A stretch of 55,658 nt of DNA from Nitrospirota bacterium (lineage in GTDB: Bacteria > Nitrospirota > JACRHL01): the NCBI GenBank assembly GCA_029858285.1, contig JAOUFN010000017.1, positions 1-55,658 of the forward strand. Reading direction: 5' to 3'. Position numbers and translations under genes: made by a program. Under the pieces are notes generated by a model, which saw nothing but the letters and a program-made list of their open reading frames with translations, did no database searches and had not been told where the DNA came from. Of this stretch, positions 26,319 to 55,095 are shown one piece after another. Each line of letters begins with the position of its first letter. Position 1 is the stretch's first letter.

Positions 26319-27464
26319 ATGGCACACCCCCCACACCACTCCCCGCTGGATCTGGCCCGCGAACTGATCGCGGCCGCCTCCGTCACCCCCCGCGACGAAG
26401 GGTGTCAGGCCATCCTTACCGGACGACTGGCGCACATGGGGTTCCGCGTGCGCGATATGTCCGCCCACGGCATCGCCAATTTCTTTGCGCGGCGCGGCAA
26501 CGCACGTCCGATGATCTGCTTTGCCGGACACACCGACGTGGTAGCCCCCGGCCCACTGTCCGACTGGACCCATCCGCCGTTCTCCCCCACCGTGACGGAC
26601 GGTGTGCTCTACGGTCGGGGCGCCGCAGACATGAAGGGGGCCATCGCCGCCGCCCTGTGCGCCGTGGAGGCATTTTTGGCCATGTACCCGAATCCCCCCG
26701 GCTCGATTGCCTTTTTGATCACCGGCGACGAGGAGGGAGACGCCATCCACGGCACCCGACACATGGTGGAACAGCTCGCGGCGGAGGGCGAGATGCCCGA
26801 TTTCTGCATCGTCGGCGAGCCTTCGTCCACCGAAACCCTGGGGGACACCATCAAGCACGGTCGCCGGGGATCCGTGTCCGGCTCGCTGACGGTGTACGGG
26901 GTGCAGGGGCACGTAGCTTTTCCGGAGCGAGCCGACAACCCCATTCACCGCAGCATGGCGGCGCTGGATGACCTGGCCCGGCACGGCTTCGACGACGGCA
27001 ACGCGGATTTTCAGCCCACCCGCCTGCAAATGACCGACATCCGCTCCGGGGTGGGGGCGTCCAACGTGATTCCGGGACACCTTGTGGCCCAGTTCAACCT
27101 GCGCTTTTCCCCTGCCTCCACTCCCGAGTCCATCGACCTTGCGGTGCGCGGCATTCTGGACCATCACCGTCTCAAGTACGAGTTGACCTGGCTGTTGTCC
27201 GGCCTGCCGTTCGTGACCGGCCCCGGTCGGCTCACCGAGGCCATGGGCGAGGCGGTCCGGGCGGTGACCGGCAAAAAACCCACCCTGTCCACCACCGGCG
27301 GCACCTCGGACGCCCGTTTCATTGCCCCCCACGGGGTTCAAGTGGCGGAACTGGGGCTGCTCAACACCACCATCCACAAAGTGGACGAGTGCGTTGCAGT
27401 GGCCGATCTGGAGCGGCTGACGGAAATTTATGTCGGCGTGCTGGAGCGGCTGCTACCGGGCTAG
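26319..27464 (+). CDS. dapE: Succinyl-diaminopimelate desuccinylase
   Basis: This 381-residue M20-family zinc enzyme starts at ATG 26319 (MAHPPHHSPLDLARELI). Metal-binding and catalytic landmarks are FAGHTDVVAPG (His and catalytic Asp), RGAADMKGA, ITGDEEGDAIHGT (catalytic Glu pair), CIVGEPSST and the C-terminal TTGGTSDARFI and TTIHKVDE. It releases LL-diaminopimelate and succinate in lysine and peptidoglycan synthesis. Its stop codon overlaps that of the convergent methyltransferase gene at a shared CTAG. Confidence 0.95.
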   Translation: MAHPPHHSPLDLARELIAAASVTPRDEGCQAILTGRLAHMGFRVRDMSAHGIANFFARRGNARPMICFAGHTDVVAPGPLSDWTHPPFSPTVTDGVLYGRGAADMKGAIAAALCAVEAFLAMYPNPPGSIAFLITGDEEGDAIHGTRHMVEQLAAEGEMPDFCIVGEPSSTETLGDTIKHGRRGSVSGSLTVYGVQGHVAFPERADNPIHRSMAALDDLARHGFDDGNADFQPTRLQMTDIRSGVGASNVIPGHLVAQFNLRFSPASTPESIDLAVRGILDHHRLKYELTWLLSGLPFVTGPGRLTEAMGEAVRAVTGKKPTLSTTGGTSDARFIAPHGVQVAELGLLNTTIHKVDECVAVADLERLTEIYVGVLERLLPG

Positions 27465-28984
27465 GACTTCTTTTTTGGCTTCGGCTTGGTCGGCCTGGCG
27501 GGTCTCGCGGGCGGCTTCGGTTTCGCAGGTTTCGCAGGTTTCGCAGGTTTCGCAGGCTTGGCAGGCTTGGCAGGTTTCGCAGGCTTGGCAGCCTTGGCAG
27601 GCTTGGCAGATTTGGCAGCCTTGGCTTTCGCGGGCGGTTTCGGTTTGGCGGGCCGGGGCAACTTCGCGGGCAACCGGTCGCCGTGCAGCACCTCCACCGT
27701 GGCGGGCACCGACCTGTGGCGCAGCAGCATGGCGTCCGCCAAGGCAAAGCGCTCGTACACCGGGCGCCAGTCGTCCAGCAACTCCCGGTCCGTGGGCGTA
27801 TTTTTTCCCTTGCCGCGAATGCGCGCAAAAACCTCCCCCAGGGTGGCATTGCCGTCCAGGTGGCTGAAGATCGACGCGGTGTAGCGGCCCGGGGTGAACG
27901 GGAACGAACAGTCGGCGGCGTTGATGTTCACGTTCTTGCCGGGGTTGCGCAACAGGTGGTCCGCCAGCGCCCGGTGGGTGTCGGGATCGGGGAAATCCAC
28001 CAGAAACGGAATATTGTCCAGATCGCCGATGAGGGCCTTGCGGTCCGCCTCCGGCGCGGCATAGACGTGTTGACGGGTGAGGGTACCGCAGAGCAGTTCT
28101 ACCGCCGCACGCCGCTCCGGCAGCGGGAGTTTTTGCATTTTTTCCAGAAGCGCCGGCACTTTCCTGATCCAGGTTTCCGGCTCCAGCATCACCCGTTCCC
28201 GCGCCCAGGCATAATCCAGTAGCGCCAGACCGTTACGCTCCAGAAACGCGTAGGTTTCGGACACCGTGTAGGCACGGTCCTGCTCGTGTAGAAACAAATC
28301 GAAAATGCCCGCGTCGCCAAAGCGCTCATGATCGCTGGTGAGGTTGCCGCTGCGGCGGAACCAATTGGTGGCAGGCAGGCTCTCCAGCACCGCGCGGACG
28401 TTGGCCACCCGCGCCTCGATGCCGGTTTCGCCTTCGTTGATGAGGCGCATCAGTTCCTGCATCTGATAGACGGCGGTGCGCCCGTGACGGCCGTAGACCA
28501 TCAGCCCCAAGGCGCCTCCCGGATGCAACACCGCCTTGAGCGCCCTCAGGCCCGCGTCCGGATCCGCCAGATGGTGGAGAACGCCGGTGCAGTTGATGTA
28601 GTCAAACGGCTCAAACCCCATGGTGGGCAGGTCCAGCAGTGACCCGTGGCGCCATTCGATATTGGTCAGGCCGCGCACCTTGGCGCGCTGGCGGGCGATT
28701 TCGATGCTGGCCTCGCTGAGGTCCAGATGCACCACCCGCGCGCCAGGGTGACGGGTGAGTTGCAGCGCCAGGTAGATGGTGCCGTCGCCGGTCCCCGCCC
28801 CCGCGACCAGTGCCCGGAAATTGTCGAAATTGCGCCGCCCCCGGTAGCAGTGGTGGTTGAGGTTGCACAACCGTTCCGAGGTGGGGCGAATCAGGCGCCG
28901 GGCCTCGTCCTGAGTATCCCGGTGCGGATACGGCAGGTGTTCATACTGGTGGCGGACGTTGGGGAGGTAGTTGAGGGTATCCAT
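27461..28984 (-). CDS. SAM-dependent methyltransferase with histone H1-like Lys/Pro/Ala tail
   Basis: This 507-residue protein has a class I methyltransferase domain in residues ~45-200 (AGAGTGDGTIYLALQL as motif I, VVHLDLSEASIEIARQRAK as motif II, YINCTGVLHHLADPDAGL as motif IV). A helical C-terminal region follows (~220-445), of the type found after methyltransferases as a regulatory or TPR-like segment. The last ~65 residues are almost only Lys, Pro and Ala (repeated PAK units), like eukaryotic H1 tails and some bacterial nucleoid proteins. The tail could bind nucleic acid or another polyanion. The substrate is unknown. Confidence 0.82.
   Translation of the reverse strand: MDTLNYLPNVRHQYEHLPYPHRDTQDEARRLIRPTSERLCNLNHHCYRGRRNFDNFRALVAGAGTGDGTIYLALQLTRHPGARVVHLDLSEASIEIARQRAKVRGLTNIEWRHGSLLDLPTMGFEPFDYINCTGVLHHLADPDAGLRALKAVLHPGGALGLMVYGRHGRTAVYQMQELMRLINEGETGIEARVANVRAVLESLPATNWFRRSGNLTSDHERFGDAGIFDLFLHEQDRAYTVSETYAFLERNGLALLDYAWARERVMLEPETWIRKVPALLEKMQKLPLPERRAAVELLCGTLTRQHVYAAPEADRKALIGDLDNIPFLVDFPDPDTHRALADHLLRNPGKNVNINAADCSFPFTPGRYTASIFSHLDGNATLGEVFARIRGKGKNTPTDRELLDDWRPVYERFALADAMLLRHRSVPATVEVLHGDRLPAKLPRPAKPKPPAKAKAAKSAKPAKAAKPAKPAKPAKPAKPAKPAKPAKPKPPARPARPTKPKPKKKS
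27521..27619. repeat. Eleven 9-bp tandem repeats coding a PAK tail
   Basis: Eleven consecutive nine-base units, mainly TTTCGCAGG or CTTGGCAGG on the plus strand, encode repeated Pro-Ala-Lys on the minus strand. The first four units are identical, which suggests recent expansion by slippage. Each unit adds three residues and keeps frame. Confidence 0.9.
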
Positions 28985-30012: not shown

Positions 30013-30040
30013 TTGTGCTTTGGACGCCGGTGCCGATAAG
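30013..30040 (+). promoter_or_regulatory. Possible promoter of the pentaheme cytochrome gene
   Basis: TTGTGC (30013-30018) and GATAAG (30035-30040) are 16 bases apart. The -10 box ends five bases before the ATG at 30046, again giving almost no leader. Confidence 0.35.
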
Positions 30041-30045
30041 TGGGA

Positions 30046-30729
30046 ATGAGTCATCCCCCATCCGATACATCACCCCGCCCCCTCCGGCGCCCCCGGGGAA
30101 GGTATCTGCTGTTGGGCGCGGCGGCGGCTTTGGTACTGGGGTGGGTCACCCTGACCGGGGTACATCACCTGGAGGAAGACAACAATTTTTGCCACTCCTG
30201 CCACATCGGCGGCAAGCCCCTGCATACCGACCAATATCTGGCGGTCACCCAGGGGCGGGGCGACAGCCTGGCGGCGGGCCACTCGGTGAGTATTCGGGAT
30301 GGGGGAAAATCCCGGCACATGCGCTGTGTGGACTGCCACACCGGCATTACCCCGGGTGAAAGCGTGCGCTTCCACTGGGTGGCCTTCGCCGATTTGGTGG
30401 AATATGTGGCGGGTCAGGGGGAGGAGCCAAAAAACCTCAGCCAGCCAATGCCGGATCACAACTGCACCCGCTGTCACGCCTCTATCCGCCACGGCGAGTT
30501 TCACCTCATCCGCGCCCACCAGGGGGACATGCAGACCAACTGCACGGATTGCCACCGGGTGCATCACCCCGGTGGCGGCCCCGCCCGCACCAACCCCGAG
30601 CACAACAAAACCGTCTGCGTCCATTGCCACAAAGGCATGGCCGACAAGGTCCTTGAACTGGCCGGAGCACTGCCCCCCGAGCCGTTGGCCAAAACCCCGG
30701 TCGACGCCCCGCCCGCCTCCCTGCCGTAA
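30046..30729 (+). CDS. Membrane-anchored pentaheme c-type cytochrome, NapC/NirT-like
   Basis: This 227-residue protein has one N-terminal membrane anchor (~19-40, YLLLGAAAALVLGWVTLTGV) and five CXXCH haem-binding sites: CHSCH, CVDCH, CTRCH, CTDCH and CVHCH. The NapC/NirT family passes electrons from quinol to periplasmic reductases and usually has four haems, so a fifth is notable. It could be a quinol dehydrogenase or a small electron-transfer cytochrome; no reductase gene is adjacent. The nearby ccm operon would mature it. Confidence 0.83.
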   Translation: MSHPPSDTSPRPLRRPRGRYLLLGAAAALVLGWVTLTGVHHLEEDNNFCHSCHIGGKPLHTDQYLAVTQGRGDSLAAGHSVSIRDGGKSRHMRCVDCHTGITPGESVRFHWVAFADLVEYVAGQGEEPKNLSQPMPDHNCTRCHASIRHGEFHLIRAHQGDMQTNCTDCHRVHHPGGGPARTNPEHNKTVCVHCHKGMADKVLELAGALPPEPLAKTPVDAPPASLP

Positions 30730-30838: not shown

Positions 30839-30856
30839 TTGACCGACATAGGTCAA
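30839..30856. promoter_or_regulatory. Perfect inverted repeat TTGACC-N6-GGTCAA upstream of the chemoreceptor
   Basis: TTGACC (30839-30844) and GGTCAA (30851-30856) form a perfect dyad with a six-base centre, about 80 bases before the chemoreceptor start. The geometry resembles a site for a dimeric helix-turn-helix regulator such as a CRP/FNR relative. The regulator is unknown. Confidence 0.5.
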
Positions 30857-30936: not shown

Positions 30937-32832
30937 ATGTTCAACAATCTCAAATTCAGCACCAAGATCATGCTGGTGGTGGTAGCCGGTTTCCTGATCA
31001 GCTACGCCGTCAATTTCTGGGTCGTCAAGGACAGCCTGGAGCAGGAAGCCATGGACGCCATGGTGGAAAAAGCCCGCGCCATTACCTAGGAGGCCGAAAA
31101 CGCCCGCGTCTTCATGGCCGAATTGCGGGGCAAGCACAATGCCTTTGACGACAAGACCCTGTTGGCCGACGTGGAGGCCAAAATGGCCGGCACCACCAAC
31201 CGGCTGGCCGACGCCAAGCGCACCGACTATTACTGGACCATCCCGGTGGTGGCCGCGTGGAACGTGGGGCAGCGCTACGCCGAACGCTCCGGTTACACCT
31301 TCAAGGTACCCAAGATACAGCCGCGCAACCCGGACAACGAACCCAACGAGATGGAGCGCGAGATGCTGCTCTCCCTCACCAAAAGCGGCGCAGAAGAACT
31401 GTATCAGGTAGACAGTAAGGACAACGTGCTGCGCTATGTGAAGCCGGTAGTGCTCTCCAAGGAGTGCATGATCTGCCACGGCACCGTCAAGGATTCCATC
31501 ACCGGCACGGACACCGATCCCCTGGGCTTCGAAATGGAAGGCTGGAAGGAAGGCGAGGTGCACGGCGGCTTTGAGGTCATTGCAGATCTTGCCCCCATGC
31601 AGGCAGCGGTGGCGGGCACCCTCAAGAAGAGTTTTCTGTTCGGCTGCATGCTCATCCCGAGCGCCATCTTTCTGATCATGCTGTGCATGAAAAAATTCGT
31701 GGTGGCGCCGGTGACCCGTGTGGTGGAAGCCCTCAAGCGCGTGGCTGCGGGTGACCTCACCCGGCAGGAGCCGGTTACCAGCCACGACGAGATCGGCGTG
31801 ATGCTGTCAGAGCTCAACACCACCATGCTGCAGTTGTCCAGGACCGTGCAGATGGTCAACAACTCGGCGGAAACGGTCACCACCGGCTCTGCGGAACTTG
31901 CCCTGGGCAACAATGAACTGTCGCAGCGTACCGAGGAGCAAGCGGCTTCGCTGGAAGAGACAGCCTCGTCCATGGAAGAGATGACGGCGGCCGTCAAGTC
32001 CAATGCCGAAAACGCCGCCAAGGCCAATCAGCTCGCGGGCGGCGCCCGCCAGCAGGCCGAGGGCGGCAGCGAGGTGGTGGGCAAGGCGGTCACCGCCATG
32101 CAGGAGATCACCCATTCGTCGCGCAAAATCGCGGAGATCATCGGCATGATCAACGAAATCTCCTTCCAGACCAACCTCCTCGCCCTCAATGCGGCGGTGG
32201 AAGCGGCCCGTGCCGGTGAGCACGGTCGCGGCTTCGCCGTGGTGGCTTCGGAAGTGCGTAACCTGGCGCAACGTTCCGGAAACGCCGCGAACGAGATCAA
32301 GAAGCTCATTGAGGACTCGGTGGTTAAGGTGGGCAACGGCTCCGCGCTGGTGGAAGAAACCGGCAAGGCGCTGATGACCATCCGCGATTCCGTGGCCAAG
32401 GTCACCGACATCGTGTCCGAGATCAACGCCTCCAGCCAGGAGCAGGCCTCGGGCATCGATCAGGTCAACAAGGCCATCGCCGAAATGGACGAGGTAACCC
32501 AGCAGAACGCCGCACTGGTGGAAGAGGCTGCCGCCACCTCCGACACCCTGTCCGAGGAGGCGCGGAACCTGATTGAGGGGATGCGCTTCTTCAAAATCAA
32601 TTCGGATGGCAACTCCCCATCCTACGGGCGGGAACATCATCCGGTCAGCGCCGGAAATTTCCGCTCCTCCGGACATGCGGACACGGACACCGGCAGGCCC
32701 GGAAGTTCCGGTCGTGCGGGGTTTGTGGCCCGCGCCGGATCCCGCACCAAGGCCCGGAAATCCGCCACTGTCCCTGACAAGGGCGCCGGGACGGGCGTCA
32801 GCACCTCGCATGGCGAGACGGAGGATTTTTAA
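30937..32832 (+). pseudogene. c-haem chemoreceptor (Tll0287-like domain, HAMP, MCP signalling) interrupted by one TAG
   Basis: From ATG 30937, with a GGGGGAAGGGG ribosome-binding site, the frame runs through a membrane helix (KIMLVVVAGFLISYAVNFWV) to an in-frame TAG at 31087-31089 (codon 51). It then continues unbroken to 32832. Downstream are a Tll0287-like (DUF3365) periplasmic domain with a CMICH haem-binding motif (codons 177-181), a second membrane helix ([18 protein letters not shown]), a HAMP domain and a full MCP signalling hairpin ([35 protein letters not shown]). The next in-frame ATG is 31114, which would drop the first membrane helix. It may be a recent nonsense mutation, a sequencing error or a readthrough site; the rest of the gene looks selected. 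Confidence 0.8.
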
Positions 32833-53937: not shown

Positions 53938-55095
53938 CTAAAACCACTCGAACAGCCAGAACTTTTCAAACGCCACCTTCCCCAGGTGCAAGGCCCGGTT
54001 GGGGCCGGAAAGTTTTATTTGTGGCGCGGGCGCGGCGTAAAAATTGCCGCTGCCAAACCCCGCCTTGCCGTCGCCGGCCTCGATAAAACACTCCCCATGA
54101 CCGGCAAAGCGGCGCGGGGATCCCTTTCCGGTCAGGGTGTGGATGAGGTTGTCCGCCACCACCTCGGCCTCGCCGTGGGCAAACACCCCCGCCTTGGGCA
54201 ACGGCTTGCCTACCGGAAGGGGGATGCCCGTCACGTCACCAATCGCGTAGACGCCGGGAAAACGGCTCTCCAGGGTGCCCGCATCCACCGGCACCCAGCC
54301 GCTCTCCCCGCACAGCCCGGCCTCCCGCACCACCCTGGGCGCCCGGTGGGGCGGCACATAGGCCAACAGCCCGAAATCGGCGCTGCCGCCGTCCGCAAAG
54401 GTGATCCGCCGGGCGGTCGGGTCCACCGCCGTCACCTGCCGCCCCGGATGGTAGCTAATCCCCTTCGCTTCCAGCATGCCGCGCACCGCCCCGGACACCG
54501 CCGCCCCCGCCACCGGCATGGGGCCTGGCTCCGGGGTGTAGAGGTCCACGCTGATCCGGTCGCGGATTTTCCGCTTGCGGGCGTCGTACTCCAGCAGCAT
54601 CGCGGCCTCGTAGGGGGCGGCCGGGCATTTGAAGGGGGTGCCCGACACCAGCACGGCGATACTCCCCTCCTGCACCTTCAGGCGGGCGTCCCGCAAGGCC
54701 ATCGCCCCCTCCTGGGTGTAAAAATTGTGGCCCGCCGCCGCGAGGCCGGGCACCGATTCCGGCGCCAGTTCCGCCCCCAGCGCCACGATCAAAAAATCGC
54801 CCTCCAGGGTGCGGCCACCCACCCGCACCGTCCGGGCGGCGGGGTCAATCGCCTCGATCCCGCCCCGCACCCGCTCAATACCCTTTTTCTCCAGGACGGC
54901 CAGGGGGCGGGAGATCTGTTCGGGCTTGCGCAGCCCGGTCATCAGCCACAGGAAGGAGGGGGCGAACACAAAATGCTCCGCCCGCTCCACCAGCACCACC
55001 CGGTGTTCGCGGGAAAGGCCCCTGCGCAACCGGCTGGCCGCCACCAGGCCGCCGATGCCGCAACCAAGCACGAGAACGGTCTTGCCCTGCGCCAT
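53938..55095 (-). CDS. Sulfide:quinone oxidoreductase-like flavoprotein
   Basis: This 385-residue two-dinucleotide-fold flavoprotein has FAD-binding VLVLGCGIGGLVAASRL at the N-terminus, FAPSFLWLMTGLRKPEQI, a second FAD contact VYAIGDVTGIPLPVGKPLPKAG, and a C-terminal amphipathic KVAFEKFWLFEWF membrane-binding end. Cysteines C157 (SGTPFKCPAAPYE) and C336 (GHGECFIEAG) match the redox pair of SQR. It probably oxidises sulfide to polysulfide and reduces quinone; an NADH dehydrogenase or another SQR-like subtype is the alternative. The ribosome-binding site is AAAGGAGG. Confidence 0.85.
   Translation of the reverse strand: MAQGKTVLVLGCGIGGLVAASRLRRGLSREHRVVLVERAEHFVFAPSFLWLMTGLRKPEQISRPLAVLEKKGIERVRGGIEAIDPAARTVRVGGRTLEGDFLIVALGAELAPESVPGLAAAGHNFYTQEGAMALRDARLKVQEGSIAVLVSGTPFKCPAAPYEAAMLLEYDARKRKIRDRISVDLYTPEPGPMPVAGAAVSGAVRGMLEAKGISYHPGRQVTAVDPTARRITFADGGSADFGLLAYVPPHRAPRVVREAGLCGESGWVPVDAGTLESRFPGVYAIGDVTGIPLPVGKPLPKAGVFAHGEAEVVADNLIHTLTGKGSPRRFAGHGECFIEAGDGKAGFGSGNFYAAPAPQIKLSGPNRALHLGKVAFEKFWLFEWF

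Follow-up and report, generated by a model that had tools for sequence, protein, structure and literature searches.

The locus raises the question of why a chemoreceptor gene of a Nitrospirota bacterium carries one in-frame amber (TAG) codon in an otherwise intact reading frame. The gene lies in a window of 55,658 nucleotides (GenBank assembly GCA_029858285.1, contig JAOUFN010000017.1), the whole stretch of DNA that was analysed. This window is the entire contig C11 of a genome of 2.56 Mb, which is assembled in 57 contigs and is 99.5% complete. In an earlier note made from the sequence alone, recent inactivation, assembly error, suppressor readthrough and translational restart had been named as the options.

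Structure of the interrupted receptor

The receptor gene (30937..32832, forward strand) encodes a membrane helix (TM1), a Tll0287-like (sCache_heme) sensor, a second membrane helix (TM2), a HAMP domain and an MCPsignal domain. With codon 51 read through, the frame extends from ATG 30937 to TAA 32830-32832 and comprises 631 codons plus the stop. Its one internal stop is the TAG at 31087-31089, which is codon 51, and neither frameshifts nor other defects were found in the frame. The 580 sense codons 3' of the TAG have a position-specific G+C of 0.61/0.44/0.82, and the third-position value is also 0.82 in the codons before it, which bears out the original description of a single amber codon in an otherwise intact receptor. 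When codon 51 was read as Gln, the Tll0287-like profile (PF11845) matched residues 36-215 with 96.3 bits against a cut-off of 24.1, covering profile positions 2-142 of 144. HAMP (residues 253-300, 33.5 bits) and MCPsignal (residues 365-521, 178.1 bits) were likewise found above their cut-offs, and the hairpin tip of the MCP domain is conserved, in a region that begins at residue 407. The CMICH motif for c-type haem attachment (31465..31479, residues 177-181) is intact, and its two cysteines and its histidine are invariant across the sensor alignments. The combination of PF11845 containing CxxCH with HAMP and MCPsignal supports the predicted identity of the gene as a haem chemoreceptor, as had been proposed.

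Hydropathy peaks place TM1 at about residues 11-30 and TM2 at residues 233-255, and in the full frame the two helices bracket the sensor. The TAG falls 3' of TM1, as the earlier note had stated, and cuts this helix off from the sensor. What is left upstream (30937..31089) is a peptide of 50 residues that comprises TM1 and reaches into the first helix of the sensor. The Tll0287-like family (DUF3365, PF11845) is now termed sCache_heme, has a strictly conserved CxxCH motif and is widespread in Nitrospirota; those signalling-fused members that were tested behaved as sensors of NO, not O2 (Deshpande et al., 2026, PMC12889525). The C11 receptor shares with the sCache_heme chemoreceptors of that study (PMC12889525) an N-terminal sensor with CxxCH that is flanked by two membrane helices and followed by HAMP and MCP domains. 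It differs from them in being broken by a TAG at codon 51.

The genome inventory contains 12 MCPsignal domains and two Tll0287-like sensors. Besides the interrupted gene, an intact haem-sensor receptor is encoded on contig C56, together with ten other MCP-domain genes elsewhere in the inventory. The sensor of the interrupted receptor is nearest to that of the C56 receptor (76% over 241 residues). Its signalling part (31699-32616) is nearest to a five-gene MCP cluster on contig C26, with a similarity of about 78% in the codon alignment and up to 82% in the tree alignment; the signalling part of the C56 receptor belongs to a different clade. Since the two parts have different nearest relatives, the receptor is a mosaic. 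A match on contig C50 was examined as a second broken MCP gene with one TGA and was rejected: this TGA is where the gene normally ends, immediately ahead of a cheA-like frame, and the MCPsignal search found the domain free of stops.

Codon 51 in relatives and the decoding of TAG

Comparison of codon 51 among relatives, which the earlier note had proposed, found CAG GAG GC at this point in four close ones, namely the C56 paralog of the same genome, two genes of genome G001 and one of genome G003, both genomes belonging to the same family as the window's genome. In a more remote Nitrospirae gene this codon is ATT, and residue 51 varies among L, V, Q, A, I, M, T and S in a set of 41 sensor sequences. 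The TAG is shared by none of the relatives searched, which included no genome of the same genus. A single C-to-T transition (CAG to TAG) would explain the stop; the earlier claim that one base change would restore the gene agrees with the CAG of the four close relatives.

Further searches covered 296 genomes of the phylum. Among the approximately 150 best-scoring matches listed, two contained a stop inside the Tll0287-like domain, namely the C11 receptor (TAG) and a gene from one distant genus (TAA). The latter domain, with its in-frame TAA, is found at G206:C34:27950-28465, and other members of that genus have an intact frame of about 650 aa; this interruption is seemingly independent of the C11 TAG. 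Among the matches listed from these genomes there was no sign of conserved recoding at codon 51.

TAG is an ordinary stop codon in this genome. Release factor RF1 was found above its cut-off in a profile search of the genome. In the window, 16 of 49 reading frames in a rough set end in TAG, and in pyrH and metH the TAG stands exactly at the end of full-length NCBIfam profiles. The proposed search for a suppressor tRNA or pyrrolysine genes came back empty: PylS had no match in the genome, and none of the 43 tRNA genes (Rfam model search, ARAGORN typing) has a CTA anticodon, in a tRNA list that is not quite complete, as tRNA-Ile(GAT) and tRNA-Ala(TGC) were unseen, consistent with unassembled rRNA operons. 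Both tRNA-Gln species (CTG and TTG) are encoded. Moreover, no in-frame stops were found among 86 control domains of the genome (44 response-regulator, 30 ABC and 12 MCPsignal domains). The genome gave no hint that this stop is translated as a sense codon, and the interruption is for this reason considered ordinary.

Explanations for the in-frame stop

The age of the stop was approached through the damage that could have followed it. Downstream of the TAG, 151 single-base nonsense changes are possible (26 transitions and 125 transversions), and none has occurred. Under the assumptions of neutrality and a transition/transversion rate ratio of 3, this limits neutral divergence since inactivation to at most about 0.07 substitutions per site at 95%. 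At the 26 sensor columns with at least 85% conservation, the sole departure is G211, a residue also found in the C56 paralog and in one close relative; conservation near MEGWKEG is biased in this count, as that peptide had served as a search pattern. Pairwise dN/dS between the sensor and that of the C56 paralog is about 0.21 (0.149/0.72). Dating the stop by pairwise dN/dS was rejected because the relatives are too distant. The intact remainder and the low dN/dS fit recent loss, error or continued function alike and cannot separate them.

The likely explanation is that a nonsense mutation has recently inactivated one of the genome's two haem-sensor chemoreceptors, an option of the earlier note that gains support from the CAG of the four close relatives and the intactness of everything else. 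A CAG to TAG mutation at codon 51 would cause ribosomes to terminate after 50 residues, so that the first membrane helix would remain in a short peptide and little or no full receptor would be made. The rest of the gene would look perfect because the change is too recent for more damage to have accumulated, and the allele is possibly still polymorphic in the population, which would help to explain the intact remainder. We infer that the base change is biological rather than technical and that the gene is non-functional. Redundancy presumably let the loss be tolerated, one of two such sensors being probably dispensable. The case resembles nonsense pseudogenes of redundant chemoreceptors, in which one of several receptors is lost and an intact paralog is kept, but differs in that the C11 gene would be too young for secondary decay. 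If the allele is real, it would capture an early stage of chemoreceptor loss in a lineage whose other receptor of this sensor type is retained. The practical lesson concerns annotation: the proper label is an interrupted gene, and the locus should be entered neither as a 572-aa receptor starting at 31114 nor as support for amber recoding.

The main rival to nonsense inactivation is a sequencing or assembly (consensus) error, or a base contributed by a minority strain, with most cells carrying a sense codon and making the full receptor. An error would account for a change of one base without other damage in a gene whose close relatives all have CAG. The nearest relatives are metagenome-assembled genomes, and the window's genome, with its 57 contigs, may be one too. 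However, the control domains without in-frame stops indicate an assembly that is not visibly error-rich, and we regard this explanation as unlikely. Leaky readthrough, in which near-cognate tRNAs (e.g. tRNA-Gln CTG or TTG) would decode UAG at a low level and the gene would be a 'pseudo-pseudogene' under selection, is more doubtful still. Bacterial genes that are intact except for an in-frame stop occur widely; a TAG/CAG example has been described, and artefact, sequencing error, pseudogene formation and readthrough are given as sources (Belinky et al., 2021, PMC7918605). A lone stop with an intact remainder is the pattern for which these authors argued, and the C11 gene shares with theirs one CAG/TAG difference, the lack of a frameshift and a conserved downstream frame. 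Readthrough would also be compatible with the presence of both tRNA-Gln species and with a family position that accepts many residues, and the intact remainder and low dN/dS to the paralog are equally expected if the gene works. In contrast, the published case for readthrough rests on stops found in multiple species (PMC7918605), and the C11 TAG is found in one genome. Readthrough genes are recognized by a stop that orthologs share and by purifying selection on the codons after it; here the relatives have CAG or another sense codon, in a comparison from which same-genus genomes are absent. RF1 is present and no suppressor tRNA was found; furthermore, chemoreceptors act in large arrays, in which synthesis at the per-cent level would probably be a weak substitute. 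The C11 gene is a member of the known single-stop class, without the conservation that argues for readthrough. A special form of readthrough, in which the TAG is retained as a leaky stop of adjustable strength and a small amount of full-length NO/redox receptor arises only when conditions favour readthrough, appears scarcely credible; if true, the receptor would be conditional rather than dead.

Translation could instead restart after the TAG and produce a receptor without TM1. The TAG had been thought to create a perfect Shine-Dalgarno sequence, but the AGGAGG core (31088..31093) stems from Gln-Glu-Ala codons and is already contained in the CAGGAGG of relatives that lack the stop. The first ATG after the stop (31114, codon 60) opens a frame of 572 aa (31114..32832) and lies 20 nt from the end of the GGAGG at 31093; as no other Shine-Dalgarno motif was found within the scanned 22 nt, the earlier judgement that this ATG is too far away for normal use holds. 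A restart yielding a receptor without its first helix thus loses its support at 31114 and is possible at ATG 31183 (codon 83), a site absent from the earlier note, which is 93 nt 3' of the stop and is preceded by GGAGG with a 5-nt spacer (31173..31185). This best-placed restart is itself unremarkable, since GGAGG occurs 4-9 nt before 4 of the 251 internal in-frame ATGs in 21 reading frames of the window. Products from either start would retain HAMP and MCPsignal, and the one from codon 83 (549 aa) would lose TM1 and sensor profile positions 1-32, leaving TM2 alone and probably an abnormal topology. Without export, attachment of haem c is impossible. As this attachment occurs outside the cytoplasm (PMC12889525), a receptor that lacks TM1 should remain without its haem cofactor. 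With either start, TM1 and a portion of the sensor would be missing, which makes haem attachment and normal topology unlikely, and restart as an explanation is very improbable. Recoding of TAG in the whole genome or in this gene, by pyrrolysine or an amber suppressor tRNA, is close to negligible: PylS and a CTA tRNA were not found, RF1 is present and TAG terminates conserved genes. No supporting evidence was found for recoding, with a possibly unassembled tRNA as the caveat.

Surroundings of the receptor gene

A small cytochrome with five CxxCH motifs (30040-30729, forward strand) is encoded directly 5' of the receptor on the same strand. It resembles NrfH weakly (35.9 bits, below the cut-off of 134) and has no Pfam match. 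The cytochrome might be linked to the signal sensed by the haem receptor; it was not found near the receptor genes of relatives. No neighbour from the window was found near the C56 paralog or near the receptors of family relatives, and conserved synteny of this region was rejected on that ground. A perfect inverted repeat, TTGACC-N6-GGTCAA, stands at 30839-30856, about 80 bp ahead of the start codon of the receptor gene. Its TTGA...TCAA ends are as in Crp/Fnr-type sites, with a spacing 4 bp wider. It is the only match in the window with at most 2 mismatches, a count not above chance.

Two other genes of the window were recorded, both on the reverse strand. The first (53938-55095) encodes a flavoprotein that matches the NCBIfam type III sulfide:quinone reductase, selenoprotein subtype, with 216 bits, below the cut-off of 525. 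The second (27461-28984) encodes a protein with a methyltransferase domain and a long tail of lysine-alanine-proline repeats.
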